A stretch of DNA of 64,000 nt, from the NCBI GenBank assembly GCA_027483535.1, contig JAIXUN010000003.1, positions 682,001 to 746,000 of the forward strand. Reading direction: 5' to 3'. Shown in pieces: positions 33,751 to 41,506 of the stretch. Origin of the DNA: a bacterium (GTDB lineage Bacteria; Armatimonadota; Fimbriimonadia; Fimbriimonadales; Fimbriimonadaceae). The number at the start of each line of letters is the position of its first letter. Position 1 is the stretch's first letter. Under the pieces are notes generated by a model. That model was not told where the DNA came from and did not search any database. It saw only the letters and a list, made by a program, of their open reading frames with translations. Made by a program: the position numbers and the translations under genes.

Positions 33751-34578
33751 CTAGCTGAACCGAAGCTCTTGCTGAGCCAACGCGTAGGTGAGGTCGTTTA
33801 GGTAAGAGAATGAGAGATCAGAGGCGGGCAGTGCGGGCTTGAGTCCGCCATCCACGCTGCCGTAAACAAACCCGCTGTACCCTCCGAAAGAAGGGACCAG
33901 TGCGAAGTAGAACCCGGTGACGGGGAAGACTTTGCCCAGCAAATCCATCACGCTCTCCGCGCTGTACGGGCAGTAGACGTGGTTGTCGGCCTGGGTGACT
34001 ACCAACCCGCCCGGGTTCAGGAGATTCTTGAGGTCACCGTAGAACTCCTCCGTCCAGAGCATCTCGCTGATCTCACCTTCTTCGTCCTCGTAGGTGTCGG
34101 TCGAATCCACGACGATAAGGTCGTACTTCTCGGTCGCATTCTTCACGAACGGGAAAGCATCTTGGATCAGCAAGTTCACTCGCGGATCCTGAAACGCGCC
34201 GTTGTTGAGGGATGGCATGTGCTCCGAACAAGCTTCGACCACACCCTTATCGATCTCGACCATATCCACCTGCTTCAGAGACTTGTGTCGGCAGAGTTCT
34301 CGAATAACGCCGCCATCTCCACCGCCAACGACTAGGGCTCGCTCCAGTTGGGGAACATTAAAAGCCGGAATTTGAACGAGCGCTTCGTGATACGCCTTCT
34401 CGTCAAACTCGGTGAGCTGAATGTGTCCATCCAGCAGAAGCGCCTTGCCATATACATCGGTGTCGACGATATCGATGCGCTGAAAATCGGTTTGTCGGGT
34501 GTGCACACGCTCCGTAACGGAGAAGGTCATTTGAAGCTTATCGCTCCGAATCGGGATCGTGTAGTTATCGCCTGCCAC
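33751..34578 (-). CDS. speE: Polyamine aminopropyltransferase (spermidine synthase)
   Basis: Transfers an aminopropyl group from decarboxylated S-adenosylmethionine to putrescine or a similar amine. The 275-residue protein has the N-terminal beta domain (YGKALLLDGHIQLTEFDEKAYHEAL), the nucleotide-binding VVGGGDGGVIRE near residue 90, VEIDKGVVEA, and the catalytic/gating LIVVDSTDT. The acceptor amine cannot be read from sequence. The GTG start has CACAAT 6 bases upstream and no Shine-Dalgarno. Confidence 0.93.
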   Translation of the reverse strand: MAGDNYTIPIRSDKLQMTFSVTERVHTRQTDFQRIDIVDTDVYGKALLLDGHIQLTEFDEKAYHEALVQIPAFNVPQLERALVVGGGDGGVIRELCRHKSLKQVDMVEIDKGVVEACSEHMPSLNNGAFQDPRVNLLIQDAFPFVKNATEKYDLIVVDSTDTYEDEEGEISEMLWTEEFYGDLKNLLNPGGLVVTQADNHVYCPYSAESVMDLLGKVFPVTGFYFALVPSFGGYSGFVYGSVDGGLKPALPASDLSFSYLNDLTYALAQQELRFS

Positions 34579-34590: not shown

Positions 34591-34735
34591 GCACCCCTCC
34601 CATTTTCTTAGTTTTTGAGAACCCGTCCCGAAGCTGGGTCAAAAGGACCTTTAACACAGATTTATTCATTTTCTTCTTCCGCTGAATTAAAACCTGTGTT
34701 AGGCTTTATTCGACGTGTTGGGACAGGTAAGACCC

Positions 34736-34822
34736 GTGAGCGAGATTGAAGCGACTGAGTCGCTCCGATCTGTTGTGCTTCTTGGGCTTATTCTTCTTGG
34801 CGGTATTACCGACTTAACGTAA
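34736..34822 (+). CDS. Leader peptide of the branched-chain amino-acid operon (ilvL-like)
   Basis: A 28-codon frame starting GTG and ending TAA, too short for ordinary gene calling. Its middle reads SVVLLGLILLGGI, so 11 of 13 consecutive codons from 34772 are regulated residues or Gly (Val, Val, Leu, Leu, Leu, Ile, Leu, Leu, Ile). This is the composition of an attenuation leader for an ilv operon. It ends 2 bases before the antiterminator strand and about 30 before the terminator, and ilvB starts 158 bases downstream. An AGG about 10 bases upstream is a weak ribosome-binding site. Confidence 0.85.
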   Translation: MSEIEATESLRSVVLLGLILLGGITDLT

Positions 34823-34824
34823 CG

Positions 34825-34887
34825 CCCCAGGAAGAGACACGACATCTGACAAGCCTTCCTGGGGTGAACCCCGGGAAGGCTTTTTTT
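34825..34887 (+). promoter_or_regulatory. Attenuator: antiterminator strand plus intrinsic terminator upstream of ilvB
   Basis: Terminator: AAGCCTTCC-T-GGGG (34851-34864), loop TGAA, CCCC-G-GGAAGGCTT (34869-34882), a 14-pair stem with one U-G pair, then a T run to 34887. Antiterminator: CCCCAGGAAG (34825-34834) is perfectly complementary to CTTCCTGGGG (34855-34864), the left arm of the terminator. A ribosome that reaches the leader stop codon (34820-34822) would cover 34825-34834 and let the terminator form. One stalled at Val/Leu/Ile codons would leave it free. Confidence 0.85.
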
Positions 34888-34980: not shown

Positions 34981-36675
34981 ATGGAACGATCTGGAGCGCG
35001 AGTAGTGATGGAGGCCCTTGAACGACAAGGCGTCGACGTCTTTTTTGGTTACCCTGGCGGTGTTGTTTTGCCGCTTTACGATGAAATGTTGAATTGGCCG
35101 CAAATCAAGCACATCTTGGTTCGGCACGAACAAGCGGCGGCGCACATGGCCGACGGCTACGCCCGAGCGACGGGCAGAGTGGGTGTGTGTCTTGCCACCA
35201 GCGGACCCGGTGCCACCAACCTTGTCACCGGAATCGCGAACGCGATCATGGACTCGATTCCGATGGTTGCCATCACGGGCAATGTCAATAGCTGGGCAAT
35301 CGGTAAGGATGCGTTTCAAGAGACCGACATCCAGGGAATCACCATTCCCATCACCAAGCACAACTACCTCGTGACCAATGTCGACGACCTTCCTTACGTT
35401 CTGGAAGAGGCGTTCTATCTGGCGAACACGGGTCGAAAGGGTCCAGTTTTGGTGGACATTCCGAAAGATGTGTTCATCAAGAAGACATCCGTAGCCTTCC
35501 CCGACAAGATCGAGCGGCGCGGTTACCGTCTACCGCCAACCCCCGATGCAGGTCAGATTGCCACCGCCGCCAAAATGATCGCCGAGGCCCAAAAGCCCGT
35601 CATCATCGCGGGTGCGGGTGTCATGCACTCTCATTCATGGGATGAGCTTCGAACCCTCGCCGAGACGTGCGACATTCCGGTCATCAACTCGCTTCTCGGA
35701 CTCGGCTGCTTCCCACGCGACCACGAATTGTCGCTCGGAATGATGGGCATGCACGGAGAAGCAACGGGCACCCTCGCAGTGCAAGAAGCCGACCTCGTCA
35801 TGGGCATCGGCATCCGGTTTGACGATCGTCTAACGGGTGACACCTCTAAGTTCGCTCCCAACGCTAAGATCCTTCACTTCGATCTCGATATCAGCGAGGT
35901 TGGAAAGACGGTGACCCCCATCGCGTTCGTCATTGGAGACCTCAAAGATTCGTTGCAAGCGGTCCTTAAGGAGGTCGCTCCAAAGACCCACCCGGCATGG
36001 CGAGCCCAGGTGAAATCTTGGCAAGAGACTTATCCGTTGGTGGTTCCGGAGGGCAAGTTCCTTTCTCGAACCGTTCTCCGCGCGCTTAACGAGCACACCG
36101 AGGGCGAGGCCATTGTCAGCACCGACGTGGGTCAGCACCAGATGTGGACCTCGCAGTTCATTAAGTTCAAGAAGCCTCACACCTGGCTGTCGAGCGGTGG
36201 ACTTGGAACCATGGGCTTCGGATTCCCGGCCGCGATGGGCGCCAAGTTCGCTCAGCCCGACGCTGAAGTTTGGGCGGTGGTTGGCGACGGTGGATTCCAA
36301 ATGACGCTCCAGGAACTCCAGACCGCCGTCGAATTCAACTGCAACGTCAAGATCGCGCTCCTCAACAATGGCTACCTGGGCATGGTTCGCCAATGGCAAG
36401 AACTGTTCTATGACCATCGCTACAGCCACGTCGCTATGGGCTCGCCCGACTTCGGCAAACTCGCCGAGGCTTACGGAGTTAAGTTCCTGCGATGTTCGCG
36501 AACGGAAGACCTCGACGCCACTCTCGAAGAGGCACGCGCTCACAACGGACCCGTTCTTTGTGAGTTTGTGGTGGAGATGGAAGAGAACGTCTTCCCGATG
36601 GTTCCGGCAGGCGGCAGCAACAGCCAGGTCATCATGGACCCGGCGCTGAAGACTCCGGTGGAGGCAGCGAAGTGA
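34981..36675 (+). CDS. ilvB: Acetolactate synthase, large catalytic subunit
   Basis: Thiamine-diphosphate enzyme making acetolactate (valine, leucine) and acetohydroxybutyrate (isoleucine). The 564-residue protein has GYPGGVVLPLYDEM near residue 20, the catalytic Glu in RHEQAAAHMADGYARATG near residue 47, and the ThDP motif GDGGFQMTLQELQTAVEFN through NNGYLGMVRQWQ near residue 437. CAGGAG lies about 7 bases before the ATG. It is the first structural gene behind the leader and attenuator. The stop overlaps the ilvN start (GTGA). Confidence 0.97.
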   Translation: MERSGARVVMEALERQGVDVFFGYPGGVVLPLYDEMLNWPQIKHILVRHEQAAAHMADGYARATGRVGVCLATSGPGATNLVTGIANAIMDSIPMVAITGNVNSWAIGKDAFQETDIQGITIPITKHNYLVTNVDDLPYVLEEAFYLANTGRKGPVLVDIPKDVFIKKTSVAFPDKIERRGYRLPPTPDAGQIATAAKMIAEAQKPVIIAGAGVMHSHSWDELRTLAETCDIPVINSLLGLGCFPRDHELSLGMMGMHGEATGTLAVQEADLVMGIGIRFDDRLTGDTSKFAPNAKILHFDLDISEVGKTVTPIAFVIGDLKDSLQAVLKEVAPKTHPAWRAQVKSWQETYPLVVPEGKFLSRTVLRALNEHTEGEAIVSTDVGQHQMWTSQFIKFKKPHTWLSSGGLGTMGFGFPAAMGAKFAQPDAEVWAVVGDGGFQMTLQELQTAVEFNCNVKIALLNNGYLGMVRQWQELFYDHRYSHVAMGSPDFGKLAEAYGVKFLRCSRTEDLDATLEEARAHNGPVLCEFVVEMEENVFPMVPAGGSNSQVIMDPALKTPVEAAK

Positions 36676-37151
36676 GCCAGCGACACACCATCACCGCTCT
36701 CGTGCAGAACGAGTCTGGAACCATCAACCGGGTGGTCTCGCTCTTCCGGCGACGCGGATTCAGCCTCGCCTCGTTCAACGCAGGCGACTGCGAGCAAGTC
36801 GGCTTCAGTCGCATGACGTTTGTGGTCGATGGCGACCACGGCGTGATGGTTCAGGTCTTGCGACAACTCGATAAGCTCATCGACGTCGTTGACTGCGAGT
36901 CTTTGGAGCCTGAAAAGTCGGTTAGCCGTGAAATGGTGCTTGTTCGGTGCCAACCTCGACCCGAGCAAAGGGAGAGCCTTTACAACCTTGTGCTCGAGTT
37001 CTTTGGCAAGACTCCCGCTGCTTCCGAGACGGCAGTGGTCGTGGAGTTCGCGGGAGACCTCGCCGAGGTGGAGCGACTCATTGAAGCGCTTCAGCCCTAC
37101 ACCATCCAGGAGATCGTTCGCACCGGACTGGTCGCGATCAAACTCGACTAA
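36672..37151 (+). CDS. ilvN: Acetolactate synthase, small regulatory subunit
   Basis: Regulatory subunit that binds valine for feedback inhibition and activates IlvB. The 159-residue protein has the N-terminal ACT domain (HTITALVQNESGTINRVVSLFRRRGFSLASFNAG) and the C-terminal subunit domain ending IQEIVRTGLVAIKLD. The GTG start overlaps the ilvB stop by 4 bases, so production is coupled. Length is standard for the IlvH/IlvN long form. Confidence 0.96.
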   Translation: MSQRHTITALVQNESGTINRVVSLFRRRGFSLASFNAGDCEQVGFSRMTFVVDGDHGVMVQVLRQLDKLIDVVDCESLEPEKSVSREMVLVRCQPRPEQRESLYNLVLEFFGKTPAASETAVVVEFAGDLAEVERLIEALQPYTIQEIVRTGLVAIKLD

Positions 37152-37217: not shown

Positions 37218-38231
37218 ATGGCTACTGTTTACTACACTCAAAACGTTAACCCAGACCTGATCAAAGGTCTCAAAGTCGGCATCATCGGTTACGGTTCGCA
37301 AGGCCACGCTCATGCGCAAAACCTCAAGGACAGCGGAGTCGATGTCCGCGTCGGGCTCCATGCCGAGTCCAAAACCCGAGCTAAGGCAGAGGCAGACGGC
37401 TTCCAAGTGCCCACCGTTGCCGAACTCACTCAGTGGGCGGATGTGCTGATGTTCTGCACCCCCGACGTTCCGATGGCGAGCATCTACGCCAAAGATGTCG
37501 CGCCTCACCTCACCGAAGGAAAGACCCTTCTCTTCGCTCACGGCTTCAACGTCCACTTCAACCGAATCACCCCTCCGGAGGGCGTGAACGTGGCTATGGT
37601 GGCACCGAAAGGTCCCGGTCACCGACTCCGCGCCGAGTTCGCGGGCGGAAACGGAATGCCCGCTCTGGTTGCCGTCTATCAAGATGCAACCGGTACGGCC
37701 AAAGAGATCGCGCTTAGCTACGCTTGGGGAATCGGATCCGCTAAGGCGGGAATCCTCGAAACCACTTTCAAGGAAGAGACCGAGACAGACCTGTTCGGCG
37801 AGCAAGCCGTTCTGTGCGGTGGTCTTTCCGAACTGATCAAGGCAGGCTTCGAGACTTTGGTCGAAGCGGGTTATCAACCTGAAGCGGCTTACTTCGAGTG
37901 CCTTCACGAGACCAAGCTCATCGTCGACCTTCTTTACGAAGGCGGTCTCAGCTACATGCGTTACTCCATCAGCGACACCGCGGAGTGGGGCGACTACGTT
38001 GCCGGTCCGAAGGTGATCAACAGCCAATCGCGAGCCGCCATGAAGGAGCTTCTTGCCGACATCCAATCGGGCAAGTTCGCCGACGAGTGGGTGAAAGAGA
38101 ACGAAGCGGGTCGACCGAAGATGAACGAGATTCGACGCCGAGAGCGATCCCACCAATTGGAATCGGTGGGTCAAGAACTACGCGGCATGATGCCGTTCAT
38201 CACGGCAAAGGTTGCCCCGGATCAAGTCTAA
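37218..38231 (+). CDS. ilvC: Ketol-acid reductoisomerase
   Basis: Isomerises and reduces acetolactate or acetohydroxybutyrate to dihydroxy acids with a nicotinamide cofactor and Mg2+. 337 residues, class I length. It has the Rossmann motif [17 protein letters not shown] near residue 20, the cofactor loop [14 protein letters not shown] (Ser and Thr retained, as expected for NADPH use), [10 protein letters not shown] near residue 135, and metal-site [12 protein letters not shown] near residue 194. It lies 66 bases after ilvN, with a stable hairpin between. Confidence 0.96.
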
Positions 38232-38243
38232 GGTCGACTGCGA

Positions 38244-39800
38244 ATGAAGTTGACCCCAGAGGCCTACCTACGGCGAATGCGCGCGTCGGCGGTTTACAAT
38301 GTCGCCGTCAAAACGCCGTTGGACCACTCCCCGTGGTTATCCAAGAGCGTCGGGAACACCGTTTGGCTTAAGCGAGAAGACCTGCAACCGGTCTTCAGCT
38401 TCAAGCTGCGCGGGGCCTATGCGGCGATGGCTCGCTTGGAACCAGAGGCTCTCGAAAAGGGCGTGATCACCGCTTCGGCGGGCAATCACGCCCAAGGGGT
38501 CGCCTTGGCTTCCAAGCAGCTCGGCTGCTCGGCGGAGATCGTGGTGCCGACCACGACGCCAGACGTCAAAAAGCGATCCATCGAGGCGCTAGGGGCGACT
38601 CTGGTTTGTCACGGAGACACGTACGACGACGCCTATACCTATGCTCGTAACCGGGCAACGGAAACGGGCAAGTCGTTCGTGCACCCGTACGACGATCCAG
38701 ACGTGATCGCGGGTCAGGGAACCATCGGTCTGGAACTCGATGCTCAGATGCCCGCCGACGTGAAGGCGATTTTCATCGCCGTCGGCGGCGGTGGACTCTC
38801 GGCGGGGGTTGCGCTTGCCCTCAAGCAACTGCGACCCGGGATCGAGGTCTGGGGCGTTGAGCCGGAAGACTCGGACGCCATGTACCGCTCTCTGGAAGCA
38901 GGCGAGCGGGTGCGACTCGACCGAGTCGGACTCTTCGCAGACGGCGTTGCGGTTCGACAAGTGGGCGAAGAGCCGTTTGCGATCGCCCAAAAGTATCTCG
39001 ACGGCGTTTTGCGAGTCTCCAATGACGAGATTTGCGCAGCGGTGAAAGATGTCTTCCAAGATCGTCGCGTGGTTCTGGAACCTGCAGGTGCTTTGGCTAT
39101 CGCTGGACTCAGACGATACGTCGAAGTCCATCGGGTGTCGAATGAGAATCTCGTCGCCATTGCTTGTGGCGCGAACATCGCTTTCGACCGCATTGGACAT
39201 ATCGCCGAACGAGCCACTCTAGGAGAACGGTCGGAGGCGATCCTTGGCGTAAAGATCCCGGAAAGACCGGGCAGTTTCCGCGCGCTTTGTCAGGCGTTGA
39301 GGAGCCGAAGCGTCACCGAGTTCAACTATCGCATGTCCGATCCTCAAGAAGCGATCGTCTTTGTCGGCGTTCACCTTGGCTACGGTCACGAACGCGATGC
39401 GTCGAAGTTACTGGTCGCCGAACTGACCCATGAAGGGTTCGAGACCCACGATCTGAGCGACGACGAGCTCGCCAAAATGCACCTTCGCCACATGGTTGGC
39501 GGTCCCAGCGAATACGCAACCAACGAAAGGCTGTTTCACTTCGACTTTCCGGAGCGACCCGGCGCGCTTGCCACCTTCCTAGAGACCCTTGGGTCGGGTT
39601 GGAATATCTCCCTGTTCCACTATCGCAACCACGGATCGGATCGTGGGCGGGTCTTGGTCGGGATCCAGGTGCCCAGCGAGACGGTCGATTCCTTCCAGCG
39701 ATTCCTAGCGGAACTTGGCTACGACTATTCAGAGGTCACGGATTCTGCCGCCGTTCGCCTCTTCTTATCCACAAAGACAAAGGCAGGCTCCCCAACATGA
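38244..39800 (+). CDS. ilvA: Threonine ammonia-lyase, biosynthetic
   Basis: PLP enzyme converting threonine to 2-oxobutyrate, the entry step to isoleucine. The 518-residue protein has the PLP-lysine motif [11 protein letters not shown] near residue 52, the Gly-rich loop VGGGGLSAG near residue 180, and two C-terminal ACT-like regulatory domains (about 335-500, with [13 protein letters not shown] and [13 protein letters not shown]). This makes it the allosteric, isoleucine-sensitive long form like E. coli IlvA (514). It starts 12 bases after ilvC and its stop overlaps the ilvD start (ATGA). Confidence 0.95.
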
Positions 39801-41506
39801 ACGAAGAACAATTGAATGCAAGTAACACCCAGTGGGACCCTCGGCACAAAAGCCGAGTCATCACCGAGGGAGCCGACAAAACCGCCAACCGGGCGATGCT
39901 TCGGGCGATGGGACTCGGCGATAAGCACATGGTCCAGCCGTGGGTAGGCGTCGCGACGGTTTGGAGCGAAGCGACCCCCTGCAACGTGAACTTGGACCAG
40001 CAAGGTCTTGCGATTGCCAACGCGGTGAACGCGGCGGGTGGAACGGCTCGACGGTTCAACACCATCTCCGTCAGTGATGGAATCGCGATGGGTCATGAAG
40101 GCATGCGTGCTTCGCTGGTCAGCCGAGAAGTGATCGCCGACTCCGTGGAACTCATGATGCGGGCCCACTGCTACGACGGCCTGGTCGGAGTCGCCGGGTG
40201 CGACAAGTCTCTCCCCGGCATGCTTATGGCGATGGCGCGATTGAACGTCCCCTCGGTGTTCCTGTACGGCGGAACCATCATGCCGGGGCGACACAAAGAC
40301 AAAGACGTCACCATCCAAGACGCCTTCGAAGCAGCGGGAGCCTATGCGGCTGGCACCATCGACGCCGAGGAACTTCACGCCGTTGAATGTGCGGTTTGTC
40401 CGGGAGCAGGAGCGTGCGGAGGTCAGTACACCGCTAACACCATGGCATGCGTCGCCGAAGCACTTGGCATGGCTTTCCCTGGCTCGTCCGGACCGCCTGC
40501 GGAAGATCCAGACGGCTCTCGCGCAGACTTCCATAAGGTGATCGGTCAGCAGATCGTCACCCTGCTTGAAAGCGGGCTTCTGCCGAGCGACATCATGACC
40601 AAGAAGGCGTTCGAGAACGCCATCGCCGTCGGAGCCGCAACGGGAGGAAGCACGAACATTGCGCTGCACCTTCCCGCGATCGCTTACGAATTGGGCATCG
40701 AGTTAACGCTCGATGAGATTCACGAGGTGGCGCAACGGACGCCCATCATCGCCGATCTTCGACCGGGCGGCAAGTACGTGATGCTCGACCTATTCAGAGT
40801 AGGTGGCGTTCCCGCCGTACTCAAGGCACTGCTGGAGGCGGGCTGCCTCCACGGAGACTGTCTCACCGTGACGGGCAAAACCATGGCGGAAAACCTGGAA
40901 GGGGTTGAGATTCCGGCGGGTCAAGACGTGGTTCGGCACCCTGAAAACGCACTTTCCCCCACCGGGGGCTTGGTGATCGTTAAGGGCAACCTTGCTCCAG
41001 AGGGCGGAGTGATCAAAACGGCAGGTGTAAAGAAACTGGTTCACACAGGTCCAGCACGAGTCTTTGACTGCGAAGACGATGCGATGGCGGCCGTCCAACG
41101 TCGCGAGATCAATCGAGGAGACGTGGTTGTGATCCGCTACGAAGGGCCCAAGGGCGGACCCGGAATGCGCGAAATGCTCGGCGTGACGGCCGCGTTGGTC
41201 GGTCAGGGAATGGGTTACGACGTTGCTCTCCTCACAGACGGTCGGTTCAGCGGTGCAACTCGCGGTTTGATGGTTGGTCACGTCTGCCCCGAGGCTTCGG
41301 AAGGTGGTCCGATCGCACTGGTGAAAGAGGGCGACACGATTACGGTCGACGCCGAGACCCACCGACTCATCATGGACGTCTCCGATGAAGAGTTGGCGGA
41401 GCGTAAGAAGAGCTGGTCGCCGCCCGCTCCCCGATACACGAAGGGTGCCCTCGCCAAGTACGCGCGAACGGTTGGGTCCGCCTCTCGTGGAGCGGTGACG
41501 CACTAG
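39797..41506 (+). CDS. ilvD: Dihydroxy-acid dehydratase
   Basis: Fe-S enzyme dehydrating dihydroxy acids to the 2-oxo precursors of valine and isoleucine. 569 residues from ATG 39797, which overlaps the ilvA stop as ATGA; the frame stays open further upstream, but that is inside ilvA. Cluster Cys candidates are in [16 protein letters not shown] and [16 protein letters not shown]. The C-terminal half has [23 protein letters not shown] with the catalytic Ser region. It completes the five-gene ilv operon. Confidence 0.96.

Follow-up and report, generated by a model that had tools for sequence, protein, structure and literature searches.

In the enterobacterial ilvGMEDA, ilvBN and leu attenuators, a ribosome stalled on the leader peptide frees segment 2 of the leader RNA, and the resulting 2:3 pairing excludes the 3:4 terminator; their peptide frames are preceded by an ordinary 5′ leader that includes a ribosome-binding site. 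C. glutamicum is known to use an ilv attenuator of the leaderless type: its ilvBNC transcript begins one nucleotide away from the leader start codon, replacement of the leader's three Val codons with Ala abolishes the valine response, and expression falls by 80% when the leader ATG is altered (PMC11857589). A 2005 study predicted candidate leaders of ilvB in Actinobacteria (PMC1262725), and in 2023 leader frames were proposed for three motifs, ilvB-II, ilvB-OMG and Leptospira ilvB (PMC10272879). Full-text searches of open-access papers returned none on leader-peptide attenuation or T-boxes in Armatimonadetes, in line with an earlier sequence-only reading of the locus discussed here, which knew of no description in the lineage.

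The window, a 64,000-nucleotide stretch of a contig from a bacterium of the family Fimbriimonadaceae (Armatimonadota), contains at positions 34715–34887 what is very probably a ribosome-mediated transcription attenuator controlling the ilvBNCAD operon, with a leader peptide gene that is probably leaderless or nearly so. This assignment is drawn from sequence and comparison, namely from the leader frame, its amino acid bias, two mutually exclusive and covarying stems, the link to ilvB and a nearby −10-like box. The element comprises the following parts:

34700..34705, + strand: −10-like promoter box TAGGCT, 9 nt before GTG 34715; predicted promoter of a leaderless transcript
34715..34822, + strand: putative leader peptide gene, 35 codons, GTG to TAA, VLGQVRPVSEIEATESLRSVVLLGLILLGGITDLT; the 28-codon frame of the sequence-only reading is its 3′ part
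34772..34798, + strand: putative control codons Val-Val-Leu-Leu-Gly-Leu-Ile-Leu-Leu, overlapping segment 1
34772..34843, + strand: predicted anti-antiterminator (1:2) hairpin formed by segment 2 and the control codons, −24.5 kcal/mol, z −3.0
34825..34834, + strand: segment 2, antiterminator 5′ arm CCCCAGGAAG, 2 nt (CG) after the leader stop
34851..34864, + strand: segment 3, 5′ arm of the terminator and alternative partner of segment 2
34851..34887, + strand: predicted intrinsic terminator, a 14-pair stem (34851–34882) with a 4-nt loop and seven T

The genes of the operon follow on the same strand, and curated models agree with the order ilvB-ilvN-ilvC-ilvA-ilvD claimed from the sequence alone:

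34981..36675, + strand: ilvB, acetolactate synthase large subunit (TIGR00118, 1.1e-224)
36672..37151, + strand: ilvN, acetolactate synthase small subunit, overlapping the end of ilvB (TIGR00119, 8.5e-40)
37218..38231, + strand: ilvC, ketol-acid reductoisomerase (TIGR00465, 4.9e-130)
38244..39800, + strand: ilvA, biosynthetic threonine ammonia-lyase (TIGR01124, 1e-217)
39797..41506, + strand: ilvD, dihydroxy-acid dehydratase (TIGR00110, 2.9e-216)

The open frame of ilvD reaches back to 39599, with the true start near 39797. A gene for the glutamate synthase large subunit lies downstream of ilvD, and the upstream neighbour is a speE-like (spermidine-synthase-like) gene at 33751–34578 on the opposite strand. 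Among named genomes, the closest ilvB belongs to an uncultured Armatimonadetes bacterium (76% identity), the next ones reaching at most 54%.

The sequence-only reading considered the mechanism to be that of the enterobacterial ilv and leu operons. The logic is indeed the same, but the nearest studied relative is the C. glutamicum ilvBNC leader, and no Rfam leader family matches the window at threshold. Like the IlvL/ilvB-II motif of C. glutamicum (PMC11857589, PMC10272879), the element places an Ile/Leu/Val-rich leader before ilvB and combines a terminator, an antiterminator and a putative anti-antiterminator. It differs in phylum, in leader length (15 codons there, 31–47 here) and in the position of the antiterminator arm, which here sits at the leader stop or a few bases behind it; the two leaders showed no relation in sequence. 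The leaders predicted in Actinobacteria likewise consist of short frames with Ile, Val and Leu runs and of terminators before ilvB, but there the runs and the terminators overlap and it was unclear how regulation works (PMC1262725), whereas the arrangement here is a clean 1:2:3:4 one in which the 2:3 and 3:4 stems covary. The ilvB-OMG motif, found in various phyla, and the Leptospira ilvB motif also have proposed leader frames rich in branched-chain codons before ilvB (PMC10272879); the window has no Rfam match, and an overlap with ilvB-OMG is possible.

The coordinates given by the sequence-only reading for segment 2 and for the 14-pair terminator with its seven T were all right, as were those of the frame it described, which runs from GTG 34736 to TAA 34820–34822 (28 codons) and encodes MSEIEATESLRSVVLLGLILLGGITDLT. 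The Val/Leu/Ile-rich frame proved to be real, but its start is probably GTG 34715, to which it extends in-frame upstream of GTG 34736. Comparison was made over 28 readable ilvB upstream regions of the family, the window included, 16 of them from its genus and 12 from seven other genera. All 28, across the eight genera, carry a leader frame, an antiterminator arm and a hairpin before ilvB, so the expected conservation of the short frame among related genomes was borne out. The frames have 31–47 codons and a Val/Leu/Ile-rich end. The antiterminator arm sits at the leader stop or a few bases from it (in L111 it is weak and 6 nt further on), and the hairpin is separated from ilvB by about 60–130 nt.

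Val, Leu and Ile account for 57% of the last 22 leader codons (range 41–68% over the 28 loci), compared with 22% in the operon's own proteins; the leaders read in their other two frames give 27% and 9%, which makes the bias specific to the leader reading frame. The residues themselves vary, with a mean column identity of 28%, while the composition is kept, as expected for control codons. Codon choice within the frame is also skewed: Ile is ATT in 88% and Leu is CTT in 53% of cases in the leaders, versus 26% and 22% in the operon genes. In the window (34772–34807) and its relatives alike, the control codons favour ATT and CTT, and the operon genes favour ATC and CTC/CTG. This bias may act to slow decoding or to help segment 1 pair.

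The pairing of the arm behind the stop with the left arm of the terminator, described from the sequence alone as perfect, was confirmed: segment 2, CCCCAGGAAG, pairs perfectly with CTTCCTGGGG inside the terminator stem (−19.4 kcal/mol), and none of 200 shuffles matched this duplex. The competing 3:4 terminator has a predicted energy of −27.4 kcal/mol (z −6.5), its seven T taking in the last two bases of the stem. The 160-nt leader as a whole folds at −71.4 kcal/mol (z −6.7), with no shuffle out of 200 as low. Taken locus by locus, the 2:3 duplex is matched by no more than 3 of 200 shuffles at 23 of the 28 loci; weak antiterminators are seen in L111, L011, L010, L008 and L108.

Pair counts were made on an alignment of 23 of the 28 regions, from which L003, L007, L011, L014 and L111 were left out as too different in layout or near-identical; the hairpins of L110 and L111 were set by hand, and L105 is cut by a contig end. 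In the terminator stem, where 97.3% of cells are paired, double-sided changes occur in 7 of 13 pairs and in 27 cells, against 6.9 ± 3.0 after shuffling, and in the antiterminator stem in 5 of 9 pairs and in 9 cells, against 2.2 ± 1.2, all counts being of sequences rather than of independent events. In both stems the signal drops sharply once the partner is slid. Because segment 3 belongs to both stems, double changes need three coordinated substitutions, as seen in L103 (an AU at the end of the stem next to the loop) and in L013 (a shifted GGGAAGACC/GGUCUUCCC/GGGAAGACC). The compensatory changes that the sequence-only reading had proposed to look for are therefore present in both stems and, together with the kept frame, support its interpretation of the locus as an attenuator with mutually exclusive structures.

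The 1:2 hairpin appears less certain than the 2:3 and 3:4 stems. Across the relatives its pairing exceeds that of synonymously recoded leaders by only a little (mean z −0.6, Stouffer z −3.3), and in the window itself it is no better than after synonymous recoding.

Half of the loci (14 of 28) have at most four T in a row after the hairpin, and the hairpin and the antiterminator are still conserved there. These hairpins (L004–L006, L009–L012, L019, L104, L106–L108, L110 and L111) are not textbook intrinsic terminators, and termination at them may be weak or of another kind.

We hypothesize that RNA polymerase begins transcription at GTG 34715, or no more than a few bases away, and that a ribosome loads directly on the 5′ end of the transcript. 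If charged Val, Leu or Ile tRNA were short, the ribosome would stall in VVLLGLILL (34772–34798) and keep segment 1 unpaired, leaving segment 2 (34825–34834) free for segment 3; with 2:3 paired, the terminator could not form and the operon would be transcribed. With plentiful amino acids, the ribosome would instead proceed to the stop at 34820 and cover segment 2, the 3:4 terminator (34851–34882) would form, and transcription would end at the T-run. Ribosome footprints are such that a ribosome at the leader stop (34820–34822) would reach over segment 2. In the absence of translation, the 1:2 pairing would also favour termination.

The proposed leaderless start derives from a −10-like box close to the leader start. 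A TAnnnT box lies 6–13 nt before the leader start at 26 of the 28 loci, against a background of 6% of positions in the same regions; the starts of the relatives were picked with this box in view, and a recount that allowed any in-frame start found it at 27 of 28 loci against 4.8 expected, a number never reached in 200,000 simulations. Comparable boxes precede only 6 of the 54 larger open frames of the window (operon-internal genes counted), so the box is not simply the rule for every gene. A −10 box so near the start codon would make the transcript begin at that codon itself or only a few bases from it, as in a leaderless mRNA. In the window itself the −35 is not recognisable and a sigma-70 scan gave no full −35/−10 match at the leader, and the case for its leaderless start therefore rests on its relatives. 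The nearest of these (L004, L005, L006 and L009) align at the window's GTG 34715 start (CACGTGTT) and carry TATGAT, TATTAT, TATTAT and TATCAT, respectively, 9 nt from the start, as the window's box is.

The same attenuator could in principle be translated from the internal GTG 34736, giving a 28-codon peptide from an mRNA that has a conventional 5′ leader. Both GTG codons head the same open frame, and an AGG at 34725–34727, about 8 nt before GTG 34736, is a possible weak ribosome-binding site. We nevertheless consider this start unlikely, as the four nearest relatives align CACGTGTTA or CACGTGTTT with the window's GACGTGTTG and start there, their TATxAT boxes keep the identical 9-nt distance, and Shine–Dalgarno-like motifs precede 7 of the 28 leader starts against a background of 14%, which is no clear enrichment. 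The leader mRNA is thus probably leaderless, with GTG 34715 as the start of a 35-codon frame in the window.

Other biosynthetic genes were seen with a similar layout: the start codons of leuA at three loci (L151–L153), and perhaps of trpE at two (L163 and L168), follow TATAAT-like boxes by a few bases. In the window's genus, biosynthetic genes may often have leaderless mRNAs. Inspection by eye of leuA, trpE and hisD in three genomes each revealed no leader frame plus terminator.

Across 20 genomes of the genus, a model of the attenuator gave matches of at least 49 bits at ilvB only, in 14 genomes; matches of 22–40 bits were many and frequently on both strands, which is what plain terminators would give. 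Four genomes of the genus (G006, G008, G010 and G015, two of them incomplete) had no ilvB match at the threshold used and no strong match to the attenuator model, and L021, from another family of the order, lacks such an element. An ilvB close to that of the window was found in only 29 of 113 genomes of the order, the rest having none at threshold or a distant one, a pattern suggesting that the synthesis of branched-chain amino acids is patchy across the order.

Sensing by direct binding of a metabolite or tRNA (a T-box, a ppGpp riboswitch or another riboswitch), with no ribosome stalling, has a precedent in the phylum. The T-box (RF00230) was found at gathering score in 13 of 59 ilvB upstream regions sampled from other families, in six of 26 other Armatimonadota families; it would serve the same gene with the same signal (shortage of charged tRNA) and the same output (antitermination), but senses by binding the tRNA directly. 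At the present locus we regard such a sensor as very improbable. Scans for Rfam riboswitches, T-boxes and leaders gave nothing at threshold in the window, and at 20 ilvB loci from relatives of the same family no Rfam family, the T-box included, reached its gathering score. The best matches of a permissive Rfam scan were themselves leader-peptide attenuators, Phe_leader (18.9 bits; gathering 55) and His_leader (16.6 bits; gathering 49), neither of them significant, and what is conserved in the stretch preceding the antiterminator is a coding frame with its composition. It is equally hard to credit a reading in which the hairpin only ends a transcript or terminates constitutively and the short frame is a chance occurrence or an unrelated small protein: intergenic terminators are common and the hairpins of some relatives have no U-tract, but the speE-like gene runs on the opposite strand, so that the hairpin cannot end its transcript; the terminator and the antiterminator arm covary; and the frame is present in all 28 relatives.

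Further loci of other Armatimonadota families (within L205–L255) have T-box-like core and terminator motifs below threshold, and many of the 26 sampled families have neither a T-box nor a leader peptide. With T-boxes elsewhere and a ribosome-mediated leader peptide attenuator here, the phylum would use at least two sensors of aminoacyl-tRNA shortage at ilvB. That one family replaced the T-box at ilvB with a leaderless attenuator, half of whose hairpins have no good U-tract, is conceivable, and we put it a little short of an even chance; the replacement is read from the sensors found in the families rather than from a tree.

The element extends translation-coupled attenuation of branched-chain genes to a phylum for which we found no report of it, and suggests that the leaderless form of leader peptide recurs as a design beyond Actinobacteria. 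Within one phylum, the T-box and the leader peptide can be compared as they occur naturally at a single operon, and a strain of what is probably the window's genus is in culture.
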